A stretch of 64,000 bases of DNA from Phaeospirillum sp. (lineage in GTDB: Bacteria > Pseudomonadota > Alphaproteobacteria > Rhodospirillales > Magnetospirillaceae): contig JAUSFB010000032.1 in assembly GCA_030651575.1 (NCBI GenBank), forward strand, positions 86,001 to 150,000, in the 5' to 3' direction. The notes beneath the pieces were generated by a model, which ran no database searches, was not told the DNA's origin, and was given only the letters and a program-made list of their open reading frames with translations. This document shows, in pieces, positions 17,688 through 64,000 of the stretch (position 1 is the stretch's first letter; every line of letters starts with the position of its first letter). A program made the translations under genes and the position numbers.

Positions 17688-18468
17688 GTTCCTCATGCGC
17701 GCCCTGCTGGCGGGGCTGGGGCTGGCGACCGTCACCGGGCCGCTGGGCTGTTTCGTGGTCTGGCGGCGGATGGCCTATTTCGGCGATGCGCTCGCCCATA
17801 CCGCGCTGCTGGGCATCGTCGTCGGGCTGCTGTTCGGGGTGGCCCCCCTGTGGGGCGTGGTGGTGGTTTGCGTCATCGTCGCCTTGATGTTGGGAGGAAT
17901 GCGCAGGGATGGACGATTGGCCTCGGACAGCCTGCTTGGCATCCTTGCCCATGGTTCGCTGGCCCTGGGCCTTGTGCTTCTGTCAACCATGGAGCGGGTG
18001 CGGGTTGACATGATGGGGTGGCTGTTCGGCGATATCCTGGCGGTATCATGGAGCGATGCGATCCTGGTCTGGGTGGGGGCCGGTTTCGTGTTGGCTCTGC
18101 TGGCGGCGCATTGGCGTTGTCTGGTGGCCATGGCGGTGGACGAAGATCTGGCGCGGGTGGAGGGGCATAACGTCGGCCGCGCCCGTATCGTCCTTATGCT
18201 GCTGGTGGCGCTATCCGTGGCGGTGGCCATGAAAGTGGTTGGCGTCATGCTGATCACCGCCATGCTGGTGATTCCGGCGGCCAGCGCCCGGCGCGTCGCC
18301 CGGACCCCGGAACAGATGGCCGTTGCCGCCTCGGTGGCGGGAGGGCTGGCGGTGATCGCCGGATTGGCGGGGAGCTGGCGCTATGATACCCCTTCCGGCC
18401 CCAGTATCGTGGCGGCGGCCGTCGCCTTGTTCGTGCTATCGCGACTTGTACCCGGCGGACGCTCGTGA
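17680..18468 (+). CDS. znuB: zinc ABC transporter permease ZnuB
   Basis: A 262-aa inner-membrane permease with eight or so hydrophobic segments. It starts MDEFLMRALLAGLGLATVTG, and GCFVVWRRMAYFGDALAH, DSLLGILAHGSLALGLVLLS, VEGHNVGRAR and KVVGVMLITAMLVIPAASAR are typical of the ZnuB/ABC-3 family. A longer upstream frame exists but overlaps znuC deeply; the ATG at 17680 begins the conserved block. Confidence 0.95.
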   Translation: MDEFLMRALLAGLGLATVTGPLGCFVVWRRMAYFGDALAHTALLGIVVGLLFGVAPLWGVVVVCVIVALMLGGMRRDGRLASDSLLGILAHGSLALGLVLLSTMERVRVDMMGWLFGDILAVSWSDAILVWVGAGFVLALLAAHWRCLVAMAVDEDLARVEGHNVGRARIVLMLLVALSVAVAMKVVGVMLITAMLVIPAASARRVARTPEQMAVAASVAGGLAVIAGLAGSWRYDTPSGPSIVAAAVALFVLSRLVPGGRS

Positions 18469-54048: not shown

Positions 54049-54086
54049 GGGGGCTGAGTAGCAGCGGAACAGAAAACCTAGGTAAG
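54049..54086 (+). repeat. Tn3-family 38-bp terminal inverted repeat
   Basis: Thirty-eight bases starting GGGGGCTGAGTAGCAGCGGA and ending CTAGGTAAG resemble the Tn3 terminal repeat (GGGG, CTGA, GGAAC, GAAAAC and TAAG positions shared). The repeat points into the element, and the transposase stop is 38 bp inside it. No matching repeat was found at the other end. Confidence 0.8.
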
Positions 54087-54123: not shown

Positions 54124-55881
54124 TCAGTCATTATCTTCGGACAGGCTTGCAGGGCTGCGTAGCGGTCGGAGTTCCCCGCGGGCGACCATCTCAGGTAAGG
54201 TGAAGGCGTACCGGCCGAGCATATTTATGTGCTCATGCACAAGCGGCGACAGGCGCGCTAGGTCCTCATCGCGAACGTCGAACCCTTCTGCCCGCAATTG
54301 GTCGATGGCCGCGTCCATATAGATCGTGTTCCACAGGATAATGGCATTGACGACAAGTCCAAGCGCACCGAGTTGGTCCTCCTGGCCCTCGCGGTAGCGT
54401 TGCCGCAGTTCACCCCGCTTGCCGTGAAAGACAACACGGGCAAGCTGATGTCTGCCCTCACCCCGGTTGAGTTGGGTGAGGATGCGACGGCGATAGGCTT
54501 CATCATCAATGTAGGCCAGCAGGTAGAGTGTCTTGACGATGCGGCCGAGTTCTTCCAGTGCCCGCGCCAGCCGCGTCGGTCGGTCTTTCGTCTGGAGGGT
54601 CCGTATCAGCCCACCGGCTTGCACAAGGCCCAACTTGAGCGAACCCGCCAAGCGCAGCATGTCATCCCAATTCTCGGTGATGATCGCCGTCTTCGCTTTG
54701 TGCGCGGCGAGCTTGTTGAGCGGGCCGTAATCAGCGGCAGGATCGACACGCCAGAACCGAGAGCCACCGATGTCCGCGATTCGTGGGCTGAATTGGTAGC
54801 CAAGCAGCCAGAAGATGGCGAAGATTACGTCGGTGTAAGCGCCGGTGTCGGTCATGATCTCGGTCGGCTCCAACTCCGTTTCCTGTTCCAGCACGACGCT
54901 GAGCAACACGAGGCTGTCCCGCAAGGTGCCCGGCACGGTGATGGCGTGCAGGCCGGTGAACTGGTCGGAGACGAGATTGTAGTAGGTGACGCCGCGCTCG
55001 GAGCCGAAATATTTTGGATTGGGGCCGGCATGGATGGTCCGCACAGGCACGATGAAGCGGAGCCCATCCGCCGAGGCGACGTCGCCACCACCCCACCGGT
55101 GCGCAAGGCCGATGCTATTCTGAGCCGAGACGAGTTGGGCATTCGCCAGGGTCAGTGTTTCCGCGCGAAGATAGTTCTGCCGGACCCAGCTCATCCGCGG
55201 CCGTCTCAGCGACGGATTATCCAGACGTACCAGCGGTTCCAGTCCGGTGTTGCACGCCTCGGCCAACAGGACGGCGCACACCGTCGTCGGCAAGTCCCGC
55301 GCACGTGAGTCTGATTCGCTGGCGTGCGTGAATGCGCTGGCGAACCCTGTTCGAGCGTCGATCTCCAGCAGCAACTCGGGCAAATCGACGCGCGGCACCC
55401 CCGGCAACAGCACCTTGTGCATGACCAGCCATACCGTCGCCTGATCGAAGAGGACGCTTGGCCGGTCTGTCCCGGTCCAGCAAAGCGCGTATAGCCAGCG
55501 AATGAGCCGCCATTGCGCGGAGACGTCCGAGAAATCACGATAGCCATACCGTTCCCGGATTTCGAGAGGGTGTCGCCAACGCCATTGGCTCGCCCTATAC
55601 GCTTCGAGTGTTCCCTCAATTGGAGTGTTGAGTTGGGTGCTGAGGAAGCTCACCACGCATGATGGCACATTGCATGGATCTTCTACGAATGTTCCAAGAA
55701 ATCGCACCGTGCCAAGTTGAACTGCGCAGCCAAGTCGCATATGGGCACCGCGATGCGTCAGAACGAATGCACGATCCGTGTCGTCGAGGTGGAAAAAGCG
55801 GGCCAACTGCTCGGCCGATACATCGGTCGGAAACCGCCCGTATTGCCTTTCTTGCTCCGGTGAGAGAAAATTGACCGGCAT
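54124..55881 (-). pseudogene. tnpA: Tn3-family transposase with in-frame internal deletion
   Basis: A 585-aa open frame where Tn3 transposases are about 970-1000 aa. Residues 1-165 are the N-terminal DUF4158-type domain (MPVNFLSPEQERQYGRFPTD to TVWLVMHKVLLPG). The frame then passes directly into the C-terminal DDE domain (LPELLLEIDARTGFASAFTH, ADGLRFIVPVRTIHAGPNPK, TEIMTDTGAYTDVIFAIFWL, LNRGEGRHQLARVVFHGKRG, LSPLVHEHINMLGRYAF). About 400 middle residues, which carry DNA-end binding, are missing. The start is ATG 55881. It is probably inactive. Confidence 0.85.
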
Positions 55882-56112
55882 CAGATTTGTCCGATGACGG
55901 TATCGATCACATCTCTTGTCGCGACTATCATGTTCCACATTCTCGAAGTACCACCGCTGCGGCGGCGCACCAGACGCGGGCCAGCAGGCTCTGGCGCTGC
56001 CCGTCTATGCTGATATCGCCACACAATGATGCCGGCGCCTTCTCCCTCGGCTTGGTGGTGACGATTGCCGTCGATAAGGGCTGACTGAAGCTGACCTGAC
56101 GGTCCACCGCGA
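55882..56112. other. gap right of the transposase, no recognisable gene
   Basis: These 231 bases should hold the other end of the Tn3 element. No copy of the 38-bp repeat, no resolvase gene and no res site were recognised. They may be a scrambled or foreign remnant. Confidence 0.45.
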
Positions 56113-56607
56113 TCAGTTGATCGGCACCACCGCATACCCCTGCGCCTGATAGCCAATCAGCGACACCCAGGTATTCCCAACGACGTGGTAGTTCGGCTTG
56201 ATGCTGGCGTTGTCGACGCCGAACAGGCGGTTGGCGATCGAGCACACCTCGATGCGGATTCCGGGGCGCTTGGCGAGGTCGTCGAGCACGTCGTTGATCT
56301 TGTCGACGGCGGCACCGGTTTCCAGCGGCAGGTCGTCGCGGTTGGCGCGGACGTATTTCACCGGCACGCCGTGGATCGCCAGCACCATCTCGGGCTTCAC
56401 GTTCTGGCGGGCGAGGTCGTCGTAGGTCTCCCGCACCACCGACAGGAACAGCGCCAGGGACTCCGGGTTGGCCATGCTGATGTCCCAGACCACCCTGCCG
56501 GTCTTCACTCCCTTGAGGGCGGCGGCGTCGCTGGGTTTGTCAGCGGCATGGACTGGGGCGGCGGCAAACATGACCAGCGCCGCCACGACGAGAATCAGTC
56601 TCTTCAT
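56113..56607 (-). CDS. periplasmic DsrE-family protein
   Basis: A 164-aa protein with a signal peptide (MKRLILVVAALVMFAAAPVH-A) and a DsrE-like fold: GRVVWDISMANPESLALFLS, EMVLAIHGVPVKYVRANRDD and GIRIEVCSIANRLFGVDNAS. The single cysteine in EVCSIA sits where DsrE proteins carry the sulfur-accepting Cys. Export makes it a periplasmic member of a family best known in cytoplasmic sulfur transfer. The ATG at 56607 has GGGAGGGAAG upstream; the long frame upstream is ignored. It lies downstream of, and in line with, the ArsR-rhodanese gene (49-nt gap). Confidence 0.85.
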   Translation of the reverse strand: MKRLILVVAALVMFAAAPVHAADKPSDAAALKGVKTGRVVWDISMANPESLALFLSVVRETYDDLARQNVKPEMVLAIHGVPVKYVRANRDDLPLETGAAVDKINDVLDDLAKRPGIRIEVCSIANRLFGVDNASIKPNYHVVGNTWVSLIGYQAQGYAVVPIN

Positions 56608-56656
56608 GGTGTCTTCCCTCCCATAAGCGGGGGCTGTGGCGCCCCTCTGGAAATCG

Positions 56657-57328
56657 TCAGTGCGTCGCCGCTTCCACCGGCAGCCCGGCTGCTCGCCATT
56701 CCGGGAAGCCGTCCTCCATGCGTCGGGCGGTACGGCCCTGCTCGCGCAGGGCTGCGACCGCCTCATAGGCCAGCACGCAATAGGGGCCTCGGCAATAGGC
56801 AACCACCTCGGTGCCTTCGGGCAGTTCGCCCAGGCGCCGCTTCAGATCCTTGACCGGGATGTTGACGCTGCCCGGCAGGTGGCCCGCCGCGTATTCCTCG
56901 GGCGGGCGGACATCGACGATGGTGACCAGACCAGCCTTCATGCGCGCCACCAGATCGTCGCGCGACACCGCTTCCAGCGCGTCCTTCTCGTGGAAGTAGC
57001 CGCGCACTAGGCGGTCGACTTCGGCGACGTGGCGCTCGGCGGTGTGGCGCAGCGAGGCCAGCAGGGCGAGAACGTCGTCGTCCGACAGGCGGTAGAGGAC
57101 GTGCGGCCCGCTCTTGCGCGATACCACCAGACCGACCCGGCGCAACACTTGAAGATGCTGAGAGGTGTTGGCGACCGACAGGCCGGTGGCGGTGGCCAGA
57201 CTTTCGACACCGCGTTCGCCCTGGGCCATCAGTTCGAGGAGGTCGAGGCGGTGCGCGCTCGACAGCGCCTTGGCCACGGCGGCGAACTGCTCCAGCATCG
57301 CCAGCTTGGGGCTAACCCTAGTTGACAC
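56657..57328 (-). CDS. ArsR-type HTH / rhodanese fusion regulator
   Basis: A 223-aa protein. Residues 10-100 are an ArsR winged helix (QFAAVAKALSSAHRLDLLEL, TGLSVANTSQHLQVLRRVGL). Residues 115-220 are a rhodanese domain (TIVDVRPPEEYAAGHLPGSV, VVAYCRGPYCVLAYEAVAAL), with C179 as the persulfide-forming Cys and C184 close by. The HTH half has no cysteine. Such fusions probably sense sulfane sulfur through the rhodanese Cys (inference). The GTG at 57328 has AAGGAG 6 nt upstream. It is divergent from the rest of the cluster across an operator-like repeat. Confidence 0.92.
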   Translation of the reverse strand: MSTRVSPKLAMLEQFAAVAKALSSAHRLDLLELMAQGERGVESLATATGLSVANTSQHLQVLRRVGLVVSRKSGPHVLYRLSDDDVLALLASLRHTAERHVAEVDRLVRGYFHEKDALEAVSRDDLVARMKAGLVTIVDVRPPEEYAAGHLPGSVNIPVKDLKRRLGELPEGTEVVAYCRGPYCVLAYEAVAALREQGRTARRMEDGFPEWRAAGLPVEAATH

Positions 57329-57345
57329 GGCCGCTCCTTCCAAAA

Positions 57346-57363
57346 TTCAATTAAACACTTTAA
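57346..57363. promoter_or_regulatory. operator-like repeat upstream of the ArsR-rhodanese gene
   Basis: TTCAA-N8-TTTAA, an A+T-rich near-palindrome 17 bp before the regulator's start. The same half-site and spacing recur at 57816-57833 (TTCAA-N8-TTGAA). Confidence 0.5.
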
Positions 57364-57422
57364 TAAGCTCACGCCCGCCTGGGGTCAACCTCGGGGGTAA
57401 CGGGAATCAGGGGAGACACGTC

Positions 57423-57776
57423 ATGAAAAAATTGTTGCCGGCCGTCGCCGTGTTGGCTTCGCACCAGGGCGCCCAGGCCGAGGACAAGGCGGTGCAGATC
57501 AAGCGAGACGGCCTCGGGCTCAACGGCAATCTGTCGCTGGCGAGCGGCAAGACGGTCAAGGACGGGGTGATGTTGCTGGCGCCCATGGCCTATGACGAGA
57601 AGGCCGAGCGCGATACCTATCAGGCCAAGTACGGCAAGCCCACGGCCGAGGCGGTCAAGCCGCTGGCCGACGGCAAGCCGGTGAAGTTGGTCACCATCCC
57701 CAACGCCGACCACTTCTTTCTCGACCTCGCCGCTGACGATGCGGCCGACGCCATCAAGGGATTCCTCGTCGAATAG
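57423..57776 (+). pseudogene. alpha/beta-hydrolase reduced by internal deletions
   Basis: A 117-aa open frame. Residues 1-50 are a signal peptide and the opening of a secreted alpha/beta-hydrolase (DKAVQIKRDGLGLNGNLSLA, SGKTVKDGVMLL). It then jumps to a mid-protein piece (APMAYDEKAERDTYQAKYGK) and then to the C-terminus (VKPLADGKPVKLVTIPNADH, FFLDLAADDAADAIKGFL). The His-Gly oxyanion loop and the GxSxG nucleophile are gone, while the catalytic-His segment (NADHFF) remains. Full-length relatives are about 300 aa. Both joins keep the frame, so a small protein may still be made, but hydrolase activity is not possible by the usual mechanism. Confidence 0.7.
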
Positions 57777-57815
57777 GTTTCAGCCTGTTGACGCACCGGC
57801 CTGAACCCTCTAACG

Positions 57816-57833
57816 TTCAAGAAATCGATTGAA
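57816..57833. promoter_or_regulatory. operator-like palindrome upstream of the TauE/SafE operon
   Basis: A perfect TTCAA-N8-TTGAA repeat 18 bp before the permease start. It matches, in half-site and spacing, the site next to the ArsR-rhodanese gene, so that regulator probably controls this operon too. Confidence 0.55.
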
Positions 57834-57851
57834 TAATAGAAGGTGGTGCCC

Positions 57852-58646
57852 ATGTCGCCGCTTGCCATCGTGGCCGGACTTGCCACCGGCCTCATGTTGG
57901 GTCTGTTCGGGAGTGGGGGGTCGATCGTCACCCTGCCAGCCCTGATTTATCTGCTTGGCGTCGAGACCAAGCCCGCCATCGCCATGAGCCTGGGCATCGT
58001 GGGCGTCACCGCCGCGATTTCCGCCGTCACCCATTGGCGGCGCGGCAACATCAACGTGCCGGTGGCGGCGGTGTTCGGGCTGTTCGGGGCGGCGGGCACC
58101 TACGGCGGCGCCCGCCTCGGCGTGATGACGCCGGAACTGGTTCAGTTGCTGCTGTTCGCGGCGATCATGTACGCCGCGTCATGGCGGATGTTCCGGCCCA
58201 GTGCGGTGGTGCCGAAGACCGACATGCTGGTGCGTATGGATTGCTCTGGCGCCGCGACCATGGTGTGCTTCGATGCCTCCCGCGTCGGCCACATTGCCAT
58301 TCACGGCATCGTTGTCGGCGTCTTGACCGGGATGGTGGGCGTTGGTGGCGGCTTTCTGATCGTGCCCGCCTTGGTGCTACTGTCGGGCCTGCCGATGAAG
58401 CAGGCGGTCGGCACCTCGCTGGTCATCGTCTCGGCCAAGTCCTTCGCCGGGTTCGCCGGATACATGGGTGCCATCGCCATCGACTATTCGCTGATGGCGA
58501 CCTTCACCGGCATCGCCGTGGCCGGAAGCTTCCTGGGATCGGCGGTGTCCAAGCGGATGTCGGCCGAGGGCCTGAAGAAAGGCTTCGCCATCTTTCTGGT
58601 GGTGGTGGCGACCTACATCGTGTTCCGCGAGACGATGGGAGGCTGA
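57852..58646 (+). CDS. TauE/SafE-family sulfite/sulfonate-type permease
   Basis: A 264-aa membrane protein with eight segments: [60 protein letters not shown] and [20 protein letters not shown]. The two GxxxGxGGG-type repeats mark the TauE/SafE family, members of which export sulfite, sulfoacetate or other sulfur anions. First gene of a run of closely spaced plus-strand genes. ATG 57852 or the GTG 9 nt before it. Confidence 0.9.
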
Positions 58647-58649
58647 GCC

Positions 58650-58946
58650 ATGAAGATCACCATCGTTTCCAAGGACCCGCCCGGCGGTCGCTGCACTCTC
58701 TACAGGCGTTATGCCGAGGTGATCGCCGAAGGCTGCGGCGCCGAGGTCGAGACCGTTTTTCCGACAGCGGGGAGCGCGGTCGAGCCGCCCGCCCTGCTGG
58801 TGGACGGGAGCGTCATCGCCCCGGCCGACGGCCTGATTCTTTCACCGATGGACGTCCATCTCGGCCTTGCCGGGGCGGGCTGTCCCGACCTGTCGACCTC
58901 TCTGGAAGCGGCCGAAGCCCGCTTCATGGACGAGTGCGGCGCTTAA
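58650..58946 (+). CDS. small conserved-looking protein of unknown function
   Basis: A 98-aa protein, 3 nt after the permease gene. It opens MKITIVSKDPPGGRCTLYRR like a beta-alpha fold and has cysteines at about residues 15, 29, 78 and 96. PPALLVDGSVIAPADGLILS resembles the late strands of thioredoxin-like domains, but the CxxC active site is absent. No family is assigned. It is probably a cytoplasmic partner in the sulfur cluster. Confidence 0.7.
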   Translation: MKITIVSKDPPGGRCTLYRRYAEVIAEGCGAEVETVFPTAGSAVEPPALLVDGSVIAPADGLILSPMDVHLGLAGAGCPDLSTSLEAAEARFMDECGA

Positions 58947-58963
58947 CCGTCAGCGAGGCTTGA

Positions 58964-60175
58964 ATGAACGAGAACAGACGTATGATCGCCAATGTGGGGG
59001 TGTTAGCGCTGGCGCAAGCCCTTCTGCTGACCACGGTGGTGGGCGGCATGGCCGTCAGCGCACTGGCGGGGCGGACCTTGGTGGCCGATCCGGCGCTTGC
59101 CACCATGCCGGTAGCGGCGCTGCTGGTCGGGCCGTTCCTGACCTCCTGGCCCGCCTCCATGTTCATGGAAAGGTTCGGACGGCGGTCAGGTTTCATCCTG
59201 GGCGCATGCCTTGCCGTCATCGGCGGCGTCTTGGCGGCCTTCGGAATCGCGGAACGCGATTTCTGGCTGTTCACGGCCGGGCATCTGTTCATCGGGGCCT
59301 TCCAGGGATTCGGCAATTACTATCGGTTCGCCGCCATGGAGGCCGCGAATGACCAATTCCGCCATCGGGCGATGTCGTGGGTGATCGCGGCGGGCGTGGT
59401 CGCCGCCTTCGCCGGTCCCGCATTGGCCCATGCCACCCGCCCCCTCGGTCCCGTCGAGTTCCTGGGCACTTACGCGGCCATGGCTGTCCTCGGCATCCTG
59501 TCGGCCGGGATCGTCAGCCGCCTGAGCCTGAAGCGTCCGCATGTGACCCTCGCCAACGCGGCCAGCGCCCGGCCGCTCAGGAGCATCGTTGCGAGCTACC
59601 CGGTTATCGCCGCCGTGGCGACGGGATCGATCGGCTACGCGGTGATGATCCTGGCCATGACCGCGACCCCGCTGGCGATGTCCGATTGTGGGCTGGGCAT
59701 GGAGCTATCGCGCTCGGTCATCCAATGGCATGTCCTGGGGATGTTCGCGCCCTCCTTCTTCACCGGCCGGGTGATCCAGAAGTTCGGCGCTCCCCGCGTG
59801 GCGATGGCCGGGCTTTTCCTGCTGACGGGGCATATCCTGGTCGCCGTTTCCGGCTCGGAGATGCTGCAGTTCACCTCGGCCCTGGTCCTTCTTGGAATCG
59901 GCTGGAACTTCACATTCCTCGGCGGGACGGCGATGCTGGCGCAGACCCATAATCCGGCGGAGCGGGCCAAGGTCCAGGCGATCAACGAATTCATGGTGTT
60001 CGGTTTCTCCGCCTTCGCGTCGCTGTCGGCGGGTTGGCTCCTCACCCATGTCGGCTGGGCCACTCTCAACCTGATCCTGCTGGTGCCGTTGGCCGTGGTC
60101 GCCTTGATCCTGCTGCCCTCGGTTGCGCCGCTTCGCTGCCCGATGATGCGTTCGGCCCCGCAGGAAGGCCGCTAA
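58964..60175 (+). CDS. MFS transporter
   Basis: A 403-aa carrier with twelve hydrophobic segments. SWPASMFMERFGRRSGFILG is the loop 2-3 motif; GHLFIGAFQGFGNYYRFAAM and GIGWNFTFLGGTAMLAQTHN resemble the YnfM/YgaY-type exporters. The substrate is unknown, but its place in the operon suggests export or import of the pathway's product or substrate. 17 nt after the preceding gene. Confidence 0.88.
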   Translation: MNENRRMIANVGVLALAQALLLTTVVGGMAVSALAGRTLVADPALATMPVAALLVGPFLTSWPASMFMERFGRRSGFILGACLAVIGGVLAAFGIAERDFWLFTAGHLFIGAFQGFGNYYRFAAMEAANDQFRHRAMSWVIAAGVVAAFAGPALAHATRPLGPVEFLGTYAAMAVLGILSAGIVSRLSLKRPHVTLANAASARPLRSIVASYPVIAAVATGSIGYAVMILAMTATPLAMSDCGLGMELSRSVIQWHVLGMFAPSFFTGRVIQKFGAPRVAMAGLFLLTGHILVAVSGSEMLQFTSALVLLGIGWNFTFLGGTAMLAQTHNPAERAKVQAINEFMVFGFSAFASLSAGWLLTHVGWATLNLILLVPLAVVALILLPSVAPLRCPMMRSAPQEGR

Positions 60176-60198
60176 TTAAATTCAAAAGGAATAACCCA

Positions 60199-60552
60199 AT
60201 GAACATTCTCATCATCCTCAACGACCCGCCCTATGGCACAGAACGCAGCTACAACGGCCTGCGCCTCGCCCATTCGCTCAAGAAGAACGCCACTGAAGCC
60301 GGGATCACAATCTTCCTGATGGCTGACGCGGTGCTGTGCGCGAAGGCCGGGCAGAAAACTCCCGAAGGGTTCTACAATATCGAGAAGATGGTGCGCCGGG
60401 TCGTCAGCGGCGGCGGGCGGGTGCTGTTGTGCGGCACCTGCATGGACGCAAGGGGCATCGCCGAGACCGAACTCACCGAAGGGGCCGTCCGCAGCACCAT
60501 GGATGTCCTGGCGGCGGCCACCCTGGAGGCAGACAAGGTGATGGTGTTTTGA
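60199..60552 (+). CDS. DsrE/TusD-like sulfur-carrier protein
   Basis: A 117-aa cytoplasmic DsrE-family protein: MNILIILNDPPYGTERSYNG, LRLAHSLKKNATEAGITIFL, MADAVLCAKAGQKTPEGFYN and VLLCGTCMDARGI. The cysteines of LLCGTC lie where DsrE/TusD carry the persulfide. AAAAGGAA precedes the ATG at 60199. The start of the methyltransferase overlaps its stop by 4 nt. Confidence 0.92.
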   Translation: MNILIILNDPPYGTERSYNGLRLAHSLKKNATEAGITIFLMADAVLCAKAGQKTPEGFYNIEKMVRRVVSGGGRVLLCGTCMDARGIAETELTEGAVRSTMDVLAAATLEADKVMVF

Positions 60553-61238
60553 CCCCTGCCGCCATTGGTCCCGGTCGCTACGCCTCCTGGCGCACCACTC
60601 GGCTCGGCTGCATCACCGAAAGGCTGGAGTACGACCTGTTGTTTGGCATGCTTGGGCCGCTGACGGGGCGGCGGGTGTTGGACATCGGCTGCGGTGATGG
60701 CGTCTTGACCACCAGGCTGGCGGCGGGCGGGGCCATCGTCACCGGCATCGATTCCGACCCGGAAATGGTGGCCGCCGCTGCGGCGACGGTATCCTCGGCC
60801 ACGATCATGGTGGCCGAGGCGGAACGCCTTCCCTTCGCCGACGGCAGCTTCGACATGGTGGTGGCGAACACCGTCCTCTGTCTCGTGGATGATCGCCGCG
60901 CCGCCCTCGCCGAAGCCGTCCGGGTCCTGCGGCCGGACGGTAGCATGGTGCTCGGTGAACTTGGCCGCTGGAGCCTGTGGGCGGCCAAGCGGCGGATCAA
61001 GGGGATGCTCGGGTCTCGGCTTTGGCATCATAGCCACTTCTCCGACGCTCGCTCTCTGACGGCTGAACTTGCCGAGGCCGGGCTGACGATTGGCGTGGTC
61101 CGGGGCGCCGTGTTCTATCCACCTGTCAAATGGGTGGCACGGCTGATGGCGCCCATCGATTCCGGCCTCGGCCGATACACCACCATCGGCGCGGCCTATC
61201 TCGCCGCCGCCGCCACCAAACCCGAGGGACATCAATGA
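60549..61238 (+). CDS. class I SAM-dependent methyltransferase
   Basis: A 229-aa enzyme with the SAM motif VLDIGCGDGVLTTRLAAGGA, GIDSDPEMVAAA, LPFADGSFDMVVANTVLCLV and EAVRVLRPDGSMVLGELGRW, the UbiE/Coq5-like Methyltransf_11 pattern. The acceptor is unknown. The start is TTG 60549 (TTGA overlap with the dsrE stop); no ATG or GTG start fits. It overlaps the cysteine desulfurase gene by 4 nt. Confidence 0.9.
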   Translation: MTPAAIGPGRYASWRTTRLGCITERLEYDLLFGMLGPLTGRRVLDIGCGDGVLTTRLAAGGAIVTGIDSDPEMVAAAAATVSSATIMVAEAERLPFADGSFDMVVANTVLCLVDDRRAALAEAVRVLRPDGSMVLGELGRWSLWAAKRRIKGMLGSRLWHHSHFSDARSLTAELAEAGLTIGVVRGAVFYPPVKWVARLMAPIDSGLGRYTTIGAAYLAAAATKPEGHQ

Positions 61239-62395
61239 CCACTGAAGATCCCATCTATCTCGACTTCAACGCCACCACGCCCATCGACCTGGAAGTGGTC
61301 GAGGCGATGCTGCCTTTCTTACGCACCCATTTCGGTAACCCGTCCAGCGGCCACATCTACGGCCATCGGGCGCGGGAGGCCATCGAGCACGCCCGCGCCC
61401 AGGTCGCTGCGCTGATCGGCGCGCGGCCTTCGGAGATTGTCTTCACCGGCAGCGGCACCGAGGCCAACAACATGGCGTTGCGCGGTGCTGCCTGCGCTCA
61501 CGACCGGGGCGGCCGGATGGCCTGCTCGGCCATCGAGCACCCCGCCGTTGCCAAGCCCTGCCAGTTCCTTGGGCTTCGCGGCTGGGCCATCGCCACCATC
61601 CCAGTCGATGAAACGGGCTTGGTCGACATGCAGGCGGCGGATGCCGCCATCCGTCACGGCACGGTGATGGTGTCGGTGATGCACTCCAACAACGAAATCG
61701 GCACCATCCAGCCGATCCGCGCCCTGGCGGATTTGGCCCATTCCCGTGGTGCCCTGATGCATACCGATGCTGCCCAATCCGTCGGCAAGGTGTCGGTGAA
61801 CGTCAACGACCTCGGCGTGGACGCCCTGACCATCGTTGGCCACAAGCTCTACGCCCCCAAGGGAATCGGCGCCCTCTACATCCGCAAGGGTGCCGCCATC
61901 GCTCCCACCAGCTTTGGTGGCGGCCAGGAAGGCGGCATGCGCCCCGGTACGGAGAATGTCGCGCTGATCGTCGCCCTGGGGGCCGCCTGCGGGATCGCAC
62001 GCCGCAATCTGGCTGAGGACGAGCCTCGGCTGCGGACGCTGCGTGATCGCCTGTGGTCGCGGCTTCAGGCAGATATCCCCGGCATCCGCCTCAACGGCCA
62101 CCCTGAGTGGCGCCTGCCCAACACCCTGAACGTCAGCTTCCCCGGCGTGCGGGGCAATGCCGTCCTGACCGCCGCGCCCAACCTCGCGGCCTCGACCGGC
62201 TCGGCTTGCCACGAAGGGGAGGAGGCGCCGTCTTCGGTTCTCACCGAGATGGGGTGCTGCCACGAAAGAGCCTTGGGCGCCGTCCGCCTGTCGGTCGGTC
62301 GGACGACCATGATCGCAGAAGTGGATTCCGTTGTGGCCGATTTGGTGAAGGCGTGGCAGCACGTTCGGGCGCGCACCGCGAACGGGGGGAAATGA
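61235..62395 (+). CDS. cysteine desulfurase, NifS/IscS-like
   Basis: A 386-aa PLP enzyme that takes sulfur from cysteine as a persulfide: IYLDFNATTPIDLEVVEAML, FTGSGTEANNMALRGAAC, MHSNNEIGTIQPI, HTDAAQSVGKVSVNVNDLG, VGHKLYAPKGIGALYI (PLP-Lys) and STGSACHEGEEAPSSVLTEM (persulfide Cys). No iscU, iscR or nif genes are adjacent, so the sulfur is probably passed to the DsrE or rhodanese proteins of this cluster. 4-nt overlaps on both sides. Confidence 0.95.
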   Translation: MTTEDPIYLDFNATTPIDLEVVEAMLPFLRTHFGNPSSGHIYGHRAREAIEHARAQVAALIGARPSEIVFTGSGTEANNMALRGAACAHDRGGRMACSAIEHPAVAKPCQFLGLRGWAIATIPVDETGLVDMQAADAAIRHGTVMVSVMHSNNEIGTIQPIRALADLAHSRGALMHTDAAQSVGKVSVNVNDLGVDALTIVGHKLYAPKGIGALYIRKGAAIAPTSFGGGQEGGMRPGTENVALIVALGAACGIARRNLAEDEPRLRTLRDRLWSRLQADIPGIRLNGHPEWRLPNTLNVSFPGVRGNAVLTAAPNLAASTGSACHEGEEAPSSVLTEMGCCHERALGAVRLSVGRTTMIAEVDSVVADLVKAWQHVRARTANGGK

Positions 62396-62916
62396 TCGTG
62401 CAGGACACGCTTTACCGACGCCTGGAGCAGTTGGGCATTCAGATCACTGCCCCCGCACCCTATCCCATTCATCGGAGTGTCGAGGAAGGCAAGCTGCTAC
62501 GTGGCGACATGGCCGGAACCTTCACCAAGAACCTTCTCCTGAAGGACAAGAAGGGGCGCCTCTTCATGGTCGTGGCCCATGAGGACCGCCCCATCGACCT
62601 CAAGACACTCCATCAGCGCATCGGCGCCAGCGGGCGGGTCGGCTTTGCCGCTGCGGATCAGATGACCGGTCTGCTGGGTGTCCAGCCCGGAGCCTTGACG
62701 CCCTTTGCCGTCATGAACGATCACGATGGATTGGTCGCCGTTGTTCTCGATGCGGATCTCAGCAGCGCCGAGCAACTGAATTTCCATCCCATGGTCCAGA
62801 CTCTCAGTGTCGGGATTTCCGGCAAAGACCTTGTAAGGTACATCGCATCTTGCGGGCGACCGCCGCATATTGTCGATCTCGCTGGCGCCGCCATCCCATC
62901 GGAAACGGGCGAATGA
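62392..62916 (+). CDS. YbaK/ProX-family aminoacyl-tRNA deacylase-like protein
   Basis: A 174-aa protein: TLYRRLEQLGIQITAPAPYP, GDMAGTFTKNLLLKDKKGRL, FMVVAHEDRPIDLKTLHQRI, GVQPGALTPFAVMNDHDGLV. These are hallmarks of the ProX/PrdX branch of the YbaK superfamily, which clears mischarged Ala or Cys from tRNA(Pro). In a cysteine-sulfur operon, protection against mischarging is a plausible role (inference). Confidence 0.9.
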   Translation: MIVQDTLYRRLEQLGIQITAPAPYPIHRSVEEGKLLRGDMAGTFTKNLLLKDKKGRLFMVVAHEDRPIDLKTLHQRIGASGRVGFAAADQMTGLLGVQPGALTPFAVMNDHDGLVAVVLDADLSSAEQLNFHPMVQTLSVGISGKDLVRYIASCGRPPHIVDLAGAAIPSETGE

Positions 62917-63698
62917 TGAATATCCCACCAATCCTGGACCTCAAGGACGCCGCCGCGCCCTCCGTGTTTCAGCCCGCCAACCTGCTGCGCGAGGCCCGTC
63001 GCCAGCGCGGCCTCGGCCATGCCGAGGTGCCCGCGATCTGTTTGCTCGATCCCGATGGCGACATGGTGCGCTATCTCAAGCGCACCGGTCGGGCCGAGCC
63101 GGTCGAGCACTGGGCCTGCTACCACACCGAGATGTGGCGGTTCGAGTGGGAGGGTATCGAGATCGGCGTTGTCGGCTGCGCCGTCGGCGCCTCTTTCGCG
63201 GTGCTGCTGGCCGAACAGATGTTCGCCAGCGGCTGCCGCTTCCTGATCAGCGTCACCTCATCGGGCCAGATAACGCCAGTCGGCGAGGGGCCGTATTTCA
63301 TCCTGATCGACCGGGCGCTGCGGGACGAGGGCACCAGTTACCACTATCTGCCGCCGTCGCGCTTCGCCGAGGCCGACCCGGCGGTGCTGGCCCGCTTGGC
63401 GCCGCTGGTCGGCACCGCGCCGGTCACCGTCCACCGGGGCGCCAGTTGGACCACCGACGCCCCCTACCGCGAGACCGAGGAGGCCATCGCCGCCCATCGT
63501 GCGGTAGGCATCCTGGCCGTCGAGATGGAAGCGGCGGCGCTCTATGCCTTCTCCCGCGCCCGTGGCTGCCCCGTCGCCTGCTTCGCCCATGTCACCAACA
63601 CCATGGCCCAGACCGAGGGTGATTTCGAGAAGGGAGAGGCTGATGGCGCCCTGGATGCTCTTGCCTTAATCGCGGCGGCAGCCAAAGCATGGCTCTGA
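62913..63698 (+). CDS. nucleoside phosphorylase family protein
   Basis: A 261-aa protein of the PNP/UDP family: LREARRQRGLGHAEVPAICL, GVVGCAVGASFAVLLAEQMF, FLISVTSSGQITPVGEGPYF, HRGASWTTDAPYRETEEAIA and AVGILAVEMEAAALYAFSRA (the catalytic VEMEAAAL motif). It could be a purine/uridine phosphorylase or an MTA/SAH-cleaving enzyme. Next to a SAM methyltransferase the second is attractive but unproven. Last gene of the overlapping operon. Confidence 0.88.
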   Translation: MMNIPPILDLKDAAAPSVFQPANLLREARRQRGLGHAEVPAICLLDPDGDMVRYLKRTGRAEPVEHWACYHTEMWRFEWEGIEIGVVGCAVGASFAVLLAEQMFASGCRFLISVTSSGQITPVGEGPYFILIDRALRDEGTSYHYLPPSRFAEADPAVLARLAPLVGTAPVTVHRGASWTTDAPYRETEEAIAAHRAVGILAVEMEAAALYAFSRARGCPVACFAHVTNTMAQTEGDFEKGEADGALDALALIAAAAKAWL

Positions 63699-63825: not shown

Positions 63826-64000
63826 TCAATGTCCCCTTGGCCGGATGTTCCGCACCTCGACGCCCAATATGTCAGCCAGCGGCTCCCAGGCAGCCTCGGC
63901 GGTCAGGGCCGGCAGCCTCAACGCCCGTGCGGTGGCCAGACAACAGCGGTCACCCAGCGACAGGCCAGCCGAACGGGTGCTCGGACGCAACTGGCCAGCT
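63826..64000 (-). CDS. VapC-type PIN-domain toxin (partial, N-terminus outside window)
   Basis: The last 57 residues of a VapC ribonuclease are visible: LRPSTRSAGLSLGDRCCLAT, ARALRLPALTAEAAWEPLAD, ILGVEVRNIRPRGH then stop. SLGDR with its acidic residue and the LTAEAAW segment match the C-terminal half of PIN toxins. An antitoxin gene would lie beyond the right edge. The 127 bases between the phosphorylase stop and this stop show no gene. Confidence 0.8.
   Translation of the reverse strand, partial: AGQLRPSTRSAGLSLGDRCCLATARALRLPALTAEAAWEPLADILGVEVRNIRPRGH

Follow-up and report, generated by a model that had tools for sequence, protein, structure and literature searches.

We analysed a set of ten genes at positions 56113-63698 of a 64,000-nucleotide stretch of a Phaeospirillum sp. 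genome (the window; G000:C71:86001-150000 in our numbering of this 4.2-Mb genome of 87 contigs). An initial annotation had described them as a sulfur-transfer gene set, and the open reading frame list placed all ten as annotated, with profile-search support as given below for each gene. We found that the set is well supported as cargo of a Tn3-family transposon and that this cargo probably works as a response to sulfane sulfur (persulfide or polysulfide). A shared regulon under one predicted operator is also well supported. These readings start from what stands in the DNA itself: transposon ends with their duplication, a shared predicted operator sequence, conserved residues and gene families that recur together. 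The surrounding transposon, the two operator copies and a hydrolase remnant (57423-57776) lay outside the initial annotation; the regulator, its regulon and the mobile element appear to explain the set better.

The set lies between two 38-bp terminal inverted repeats, the left at 54049..54086 (+ strand) and the right, its inverted copy, at 65343-65380, beyond the window end; 37 of 38 positions are complementary. TACAC stands on the outer side of both repeats as a 5-bp target duplication, and the element spans 54049-65380 (11,332 bp). Just inside the left repeat a Tn3-family transposase of 604 aa is encoded on the minus strand (54124..55938), with DUF4158 (residues 24-181) followed directly by DDE_Tnp_Tn3 (188-577; 495 bits over the whole profile). 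In the ten best plasmid relatives listed, the same residues are split into two or three pieces across about 3.0 kb. Since 588 residues span 3009 nt (two pieces) in the best of these, about 400 aa of the middle of the transposase seem to be absent from the window copy, and the element may therefore not move on its own. On the other side of the cargo, a profile search found a PIN-domain gene (63826-64362, minus strand; the window holds its C-terminal part, 63826..64000), followed beyond the window end by a serine resolvase (64621-65286; Resolvase domain, 99.5 bits). A DDE transposase, 38-bp repeats with a 5-bp duplication and a resolvase, as expected of a Tn3-family element, are all present. Transposons of this family are known mainly for carrying drug and metal resistance; the present case would be that of a sulfur-stress operon. 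Tn6517 of Arthrobacter, as described in the available excerpt of PMC6305408, has 38-bp terminal repeats whose beginning resembles that of the window element's repeats (GGGGTCTGAG..GCAGCGGAACAG), a 5-bp duplication and a serine resolvase, and carries five hypothetical genes. The window element differs from it in its internally shortened transposase and in its passengers, a putative sulfur-response operon.

The terminal repeats had no match (up to 9 mismatches allowed) in the other locus stretches that we examined, and they were not found in the stretches around two further copies of the last cargo gene in the same genome. Loci L036, L043, L044 and L045 contained no long inverted repeats, and the pairs in L040, L041 and L042 were unlike those of the transposon. 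The pair in L040 (genome G200) consists of 47-nt arms, 87% complementary, at 2121-2167 and 17813-17859, 15.6 kb apart around ArsR, tauE and PNP relatives; this pair is possibly a dispersed repeat. The contig that holds the window has two further incomplete copies of the transposon's terminal repeats at G000:C71:266355-268630; they lie some 2.2 kb from each other and are perhaps a short derivative of the element. Large proteins (c32) beside PNP genes in L035, L041 and L085, considered as Tn3 transposases, are efflux pumps of the RND type.

Within the cargo, the putative repressor gene arsR (56657..57328, minus strand; Pfam and NCBIfam matches, cysteine columns) encodes a rhodanese domain and an ArsR helix-turn-helix in a single chain. 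It runs leftward, as does a periplasmic DsrE-like gene, and the other eight genes (tauE, a gene for a 98-aa protein, MFS transporter, dsrE, methyltransferase, desulfurase, YbaK-type and PNP-type) run rightward. Gaps from tauE to dsrE are 3, 17 and 23 nt, and no gap in the run exceeds 23 nt. The last five genes overlap by 4 nt each, exactly as had been annotated (60549-60552, 61235-61238, 62392-62395 and 62913-62916). A palindrome scan found a predicted operator of the form ATTCAA-N8-TTGAAT, equivalent to ATTC-N12-GAAT, before each unit: O1 (ATTCAATTAAACACTTTAAT, 57345..57364) upstream of arsR and O2 (GTTCAAGAAATCGATTGAAT, 57815..57834) upstream of tauE and the eight-gene run, both matching 11 of 12 consensus positions.

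We found the same palindrome beside relatives elsewhere. Of 39 ArsR-anchored loci, 28 had a site scoring at least 11 of 12 within the upstream 300 bp, against 1 of 1397 control stretches. These 39 loci (L206-L244) exclude ArsR loci known through the purine nucleoside phosphorylase (PNP)-fold enzyme encoded by the last cargo gene, and hence hold no PNP by construction. A scan of 83 PNP loci (1.32 Mb) gave 26 sites, distributed over 23 loci; with 30 permuted palindromes as controls, the same scan gave between 0 and 4 sites each (0-4). Of the 23 loci with sites, 22 also had an ArsR-rhodanese match, the exception being L091, whose site is 9 kb from PNP. All operator controls came from a single random seed, and the permutations from a single set of 30. 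Six exact-core sites occur in the Phaeospirillum genome, against one for the reversed control pattern. Three of them belong to PNP cassettes; the other three (G000 C3, C7 and C86) fall within reading frames, and we regarded them as chance occurrences.

The cysteines of the regulator point to the rhodanese domain. The only columns with cysteine in at least 30% of 73 homologues were C179 and C184, each in 73 of 73, and both sit in the rhodanese loop YCRGPYC; residues 1-110 contained no cysteine in 59 homologues, one in 12 and two in 2. We take this loop pair as the likely sensor, by analogy with known repressors. According to the excerpt of PMC9774250, the ArsR-type repressors SqrR and YgaV sense sulfane sulfur through a two-cysteine tetrasulfide, and the deduced SqrR site published there is ATTC-N8-GAAT. 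SqrR controls SQR and a rhodanese protein, as stated in the part of PMC9995734 consulted. The window regulator resembles SqrR, BigR and YgaV in the ArsR-type winged helix, the palindromic operator with ATTC...GAAT arms and two cysteines as likely sensor (excerpts of PMC9774250 and PMC9995734; for BigR, of PMC7315123), and its family resembles SqrR in having SQR-type and rhodanese genes in the regulon (PMC9995734, in part). The excerpt of PMC7315123 also mentions an SQR-PDO-TauE operon, there under FisR. Unlike SqrR and BigR, the window family has its likely sensor cysteines in the fused C-terminal rhodanese domain and not in the ArsR domain, and its operator spacing is N12 (exact upstream of 44 of 73 homologues) and not the N8 of SqrR (0 of 73). 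The two ArsR-domain cysteines of the SqrR/BigR family are thus not conserved among these homologues, and its N8 operator is missing. The repressors sHdrR and SoxR of Hyphomicrobium denitrificans are likewise ArsR-type and sulfane-sulfur-responsive, with sulfur-transfer genes that include a DsrE type; their gene set is different and the excerpt of PMC12423496 names no rhodanese fusion. Our literature search, at the level of titles and abstract openings, returned no description of an ArsR-rhodanese regulator or of this gene set. The sensing cysteines of SqrR and YgaV belong to the ArsR fold (PMC9774250 and PMC9995734, in part), whereas here the whole family keeps cysteines only in the fused rhodanese and has a predicted operator of its own, so the idea of a sulfurtransferase domain as sensor is directly testable.

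The neighbours of the regulator were then counted in the 39 loci (within 5 kb). The commonest, in 16 loci, was a membrane protein resembling fatty-acid hydroxylases and sterol desaturases (FA_hydroxylase), followed by DsrE (12), a VTT-rhodanese fusion protein (10), an SQR-III-like flavoprotein (6; the cut-off of the SQR-III model was not reached), a methyltransferase (4 of the window type and 1 of a second type), TauE (3), an alpha/beta hydrolase (3) and desulfurase (2). Among 25 control loci there were one SQR match (L134) and two methyltransferase matches (L130, L158), otherwise none of these families; L134 is itself a member of the system, wrongly included among the controls, and the source of the single control matches for SQR and ArsR-rhodanese. 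Conserved cysteines confined to the rhodanese loop, together with DsrE, VTT-rhodanese and SQR-III-like neighbours, point to a response to sulfane sulfur, and we regard a persulfide-type ligand as moderately supported. Because the families recur together above chance and share one predicted operator, neither a lack of co-occurrence nor separate control was found, as far as sequence can tell, and the initial view of the genes as a set stands.

On this basis we propose the following course of events. The ArsR-rhodanese repressor would sit on O1 and O2 and block both arsR and the tauE-to-pnp operon; as persulfides accumulate, C179 and C184 would take up sulfur or become cross-linked, and the repressor would leave the DNA. 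DsrE (CGTC), the desulfurase and the periplasmic DsrE-like protein may then move sulfane sulfur, and TauE may export an oxidised sulfur anion. The methyltransferase could S-methylate, and so cap, a thiol, a persulfide or another small acceptor. The PNP-fold enzyme would act with it on a nucleoside linked to the methylation; it would probably be a nucleosidase, or use a different acceptor, rather than a classic phosphorylase. The MFS transporter might export a product or relieve the stress, and YbaK may be an accessory.

The regulon also carries a recurring and sometimes fused pair of methyltransferase and PNP-fold enzyme with an altered phosphate site. The window copies are a class I S-adenosylmethionine (SAM) methyltransferase with a TTG start (60549..61238, + strand; Pfam and NCBIfam matches) and the PNP-fold enzyme (62913..63698, + strand; PNP_UDP_1, 99.2 bits). 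For the counts, we left out L033 (31% identical) and L059, L060, L070 and L094 (taken as second copies) and treated L114-L116, L119-L133 and L135-L138 as distant, which leaves 83 PNP loci; five plasmid loci (L139-L143) bring the total to 88, and in 57 of these the sequence reaches 4 kb to either side of PNP. Of the 83 loci, 68 extend 1.5 kb to either side of PNP; 27 of these have a methyltransferase inside that distance and 21 have one no more than 400 bp away, against about 0.02 methyltransferases per 3 kb predicted from the far flanks. Three loci hold the two as a gene fusion in one open frame, with the methyltransferase first on a Methylocystis rosea plasmid (L031) and in an Acidobacteria metagenome-assembled genome (L065) and with PNP first in a Chitinophagaceae one (L101). 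The METHYLTRANSFERASE-PNP pair thus appears to form a module of methyltransferase and PNP-fold enzyme.

Within 6 kb of the 88 PNP genes we found methyltransferase in 33 loci, ArsR-rhodanese in 24, DsrE, desulfurase and MFS in 16 each, MBL in 10, TauE and FA_hydroxylase in 7 each, the 98-aa protein in 6, alpha/beta hydrolase and SQR-like proteins in 4 each, VTT-rhodanese and radical SAM in 3 each and YbaK in 2. Where ArsR-rhodanese was near PNP (a group that does not include the window, where over 6 kb separate arsR and pnp), DsrE, TauE, MFS and MBL were enriched (Fisher p 0.0003-0.0014), and enrichment was not significant for methyltransferase (p 0.15) and desulfurase (p 0.12), kinship being ignored in all these tests. 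In the order, methyltransferase relatives (E<=1e-35) occurred in 11 of 297 genomes, at 13 loci; 12 of these 13 had ArsR-rhodanese within 5 kb (exception G155), and 7 had PNP. A second PNP context contains a radical-SAM/SPASM enzyme with DUF2064- or GT2-type genes (L064, L100, L110), and in L061 DUF2064 and AglJ-like GT2 genes lie beside the PNP relative; we know of no description of such a context. TIGR04282, the arsenosugar glycosyltransferase family (DUF2064), scored above its cut-off in L100. An arsenosugar cluster was rejected as a reading of the window, since it applies only to this separate context and no arsenosugar-type radical-SAM or glycosyltransferase gene is among the window genes. 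In L166 (on G200:C2) the start of a PNP gene follows the methyltransferase and then breaks off, perhaps a decayed pair. At least 61 loci on viral contigs encode methyltransferase-like sequences, mostly partial and 22-53% identical, which we took as general relatives.

The PNP-fold enzyme was modelled with high confidence (pLDDT 93.0), and the best 50 structural matches listed by Foldseek were purine, methylthioadenosine (MTA) and uridine phosphorylases (TM-score to the query 0.66-0.72), with no MTA/S-adenosylhomocysteine (SAH) nucleosidase among them. It shares the fold (TM about 0.7) and the EMEA motif with purine nucleoside and uridine phosphorylases (PNP/UP; 1odi, 4lnh, 1jds) and HpnG-type enzymes. 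EMEA is the ribose motif of this family, and E204 and M205 were present in 87 of 87 homologues and E206 in 84. D48, W67, H71, R137, D182 and E204 were invariant, and C43, C69, C108 and C223 were kept in 78, 85, 78 and 84 of the 87. The enzyme differs from these phosphorylases in these four conserved cysteines, an LDPDGD loop, Asn229 and the replacement of two phosphate-site arginines. The arginine of the DHRGLW loop of 1odi aligns to T72 (Thr in 76, Ser in 11 of 87) and that of the LVRVGT strand to S113 (Ser in 82 of 87), where the arginines of solved enzymes presumably bind phosphate; the phosphate-binding arginines are thus missing at both positions, and the N-terminal phosphate loop aligns poorly. 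N229, present in 87 of 87, aligns with Asp of MTA phosphorylase 1jds and DeoD-type 4m3n and with Asn of the Thermus enzyme 1odi and DeoD-type 3uay. At this position Asp serves adenine and Asn 6-oxopurines, and Asp protonates adenine in MTA/SAH nucleosidase. The N229 point is only suggestive. No curated NCBIfam cut-off was reached by the enzyme. Given the two replaced phosphate-site arginines and the Asn of the base site, ordinary phosphorylase activity is improbable, and a nucleosidase or a changed acceptor seems more likely than phosphorolysis. The enzyme chemistry of the module is weakly supported. A bolder proposal, to which we give limited credence, is that methyltransferase and PNP-fold enzyme constitute a new two-step module, found from proteobacteria to a haloarchaeon, which methylates and cleaves a thiol- or persulfide-bearing or SAM-derived nucleoside in sulfane-sulfur detoxification, under a new class of sensor in which the rhodanese domain and not the ArsR domain reads persulfide.

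The same evidence bears on an alternative in which the PNP-fold protein merely clears SAM by-products, that is SAH, MTA or 5'-deoxyadenosine from the methyltransferase or a radical-SAM enzyme. PNP is paired or fused with different methyltransferases and elsewhere lies beside radical-SAM genes, SAM use being the common factor, and a hydrolase, for example an MTA/SAH nucleosidase, could well lack the phosphate-site arginines. Against this, the Asp expected of such a nucleosidase was replaced by Asn229 in 87 of 87 homologues, a position taken from the aligned phosphorylases (Asp in 1jds and 4m3n, but Asn also in DeoD-type 3uay), and the best structural matches listed are the phosphorylases named above. 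We consider by-product clearance unlikely, and the initial suggestion that the PNP-type enzyme clears SAH or MTA is disfavoured on the same residue.

Several observations weigh against a sulfane-sulfur response as we propose it. Its ligand is inferred from cysteines and neighbours only, and the FA_hydroxylase-like protein, the commonest neighbour of the regulator, has no obvious sulfur role. In eleven of the 39 ArsR loci the operator score stays below 11, and a simple scan for sigma-70 promoters gave none near O1 or O2. Thirty-eight of the 88 PNP loci lack ArsR-rhodanese, DsrE, desulfurase, TauE and methyltransferase within 6 kb, so PNP has other contexts, including the radical-SAM/glycosyltransferase clusters. 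Finally, a role in metal stress would also agree with several plasmid-borne ArsR-rhodanese or PNP relatives whose neighbours are copper, mercury or cytochrome genes. A metal or metalloid resistance cassette would have ArsR sense Cu, Hg, As, Se or Te, the methyltransferase make a methylated metalloid, and DsrE and desulfurase supply metal-precipitating sulfide. Copper, mercury or RND efflux genes near plasmid-borne relatives are in its favour, as are weak matches of the methyltransferase to arsenite methyltransferase profiles. These matches reach at most 65.9 bits against cut-offs of at least 240, however, and the methyltransferase conserves only C48 and C111, unlike what ArsM would require; the 73 regulators have no conserved cysteine in the ArsR domain, and the 39 loci not chosen for PNP have sulfide-type neighbours (SQR-III-like, DsrE, VTT-rhodanese). 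We therefore hold metal resistance to be quite unlikely. As a separate observation, a MerT-family gene followed by a gene for a GDCCVxC (seleno)protein lies near ArsR-rhodanese in L034 and L147 (Bradyrhizobium and Methylobacterium plasmids).

The operon itself has a composite look. In genome G180 (same family, other genus), relatives of MFS, dsrE, desulfurase, YbaK and PNP (84-89% identical) lie together with one ArsR-rhodanese gene (60%) and operators, and a 93% identical ArsR relative with its own operator lies 19 kb away. The window operon thus looks as if two pieces, both controlled in this way, had been joined. The G180 methyltransferase is only 62% identical, so this gene may have been exchanged. 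That the pieces were merely joined by recombination on the transposon, independently regulated and without a joint function, would agree with the two separate G180 loci; related one-piece operons exist in L046 and L048, and both pieces have the same operator type and would therefore give one response wherever they lie, and we judge this improbable. PNP relatives are patchy, in 20 of 297 genomes of the order (E<=1e-10). Besides the window copy, the Phaeospirillum genome contains PNP genes on C24 and C36 that are 90-91% identical to it and accompanied by ArsR-rhodanese genes of their own, and among the best 80 of 369 loci, relatives 55-66% identical came from Rubrobacteraceae, Mycobacterium, Anaerolineae, Bacteroidetes, Acidobacteria and a halophilic archaeon. 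A PNP tree required 13 changes for 10 groups, against a shuffled mean of 15.4 (as low in 1 of 200), with long branches flagged; the lack of clean phylum separation fits transfer without proving it.

The pathway of the initial annotation, in which cysteine sulfur passes to a nucleoside-like acceptor and is methylated and exported, agrees with gene content, operon structure and the methyltransferase-PNP fusions but is very improbable, as profile searches recognised no gene in the set for joining sulfur to a base or sugar, YbaK is rare, and MFS, desulfurase and DsrE each accompany only 16 of 88 PNP loci. What survives of it is the outline of a joint sulfur system; the YbaK-type protein as a regular guard of the pathway does not fit its presence near PNP in only 2 of the 88 loci.

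Handling of cysteine sulfur is supported by the residues of two cargo proteins. The NifS/IscS-like cysteine desulfurase (61235..62395, + strand; class-V aminotransferase fold) keeps its active Cys325 in 16 of 16 relatives; its best model is NifS-like (435.8 bits, below the equivalog cut-off of 530.75). The cytoplasmic DsrE-family sulfur carrier (60199..60552, + strand; DsrE, 85.0 bits) has a CGTC motif whose C78 and C81 are kept in 24 of 24 relatives, and it falls short of the TusD equivalog (26.1 against 89.25 bits). In the methyltransferase, C48 (in the SAM loop) and C111 are invariant in 17 of 17 sequences, with no further conserved cysteine; compared by sequence score alone, its best NCBIfam match is the DVU_1556 family (NF045667; 90.4 bits, below the cut-off of 155). 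In-frame TGA codons in three methyltransferase matches, considered as selenocysteine, proved to be terminal stops.

The remaining cargo genes are as follows. The periplasmic DsrE-like protein (56113..56607, minus strand), with a signal-peptide-like start, scores 19.2 bits against the DsrE model (cut-off 22.7), and two relatives (51% and 47% identical) exceed the cut-off with 31.8 and 26.5 bits. It was present in 4 of 297 genomes of the order (E<=1e-15) and is therefore outside the recurring core. Between arsR and tauE, a frame of 118 codons (57423..57776, + strand) appears to be left over from an alpha/beta hydrolase gene; its longer relatives adjoin PNP in L046-L048 and lie between two operators in L206. 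The TauE/SafE-family permease (57852..58646, + strand; Pfam TauE, 154.9 bits) is followed by the 98-aa protein (58650..58946, + strand), in which Cys15 and Cys96 are kept in 6 of 6 aligned sequences; its model (pLDDT 92.9) has a weak thioredoxin/glutaredoxin-like likeness, and a structural search gave zero matches at E<=0.001. The MFS transporter (58964..60175, + strand) was assigned by Pfam MFS_1. The YbaK/ProX-type protein (62392..62916, + strand) has the general aminoacyl-tRNA editing domain (tRNA_edit, 88.4 bits) and does not reach the Cys-tRNA(Pro) deacylase equivalog TIGR00011 (24.5 against 153.25 bits). Elsewhere in the same genome, a tandem pair of further DsrE-family genes lies at G000:C71:663122-663860.

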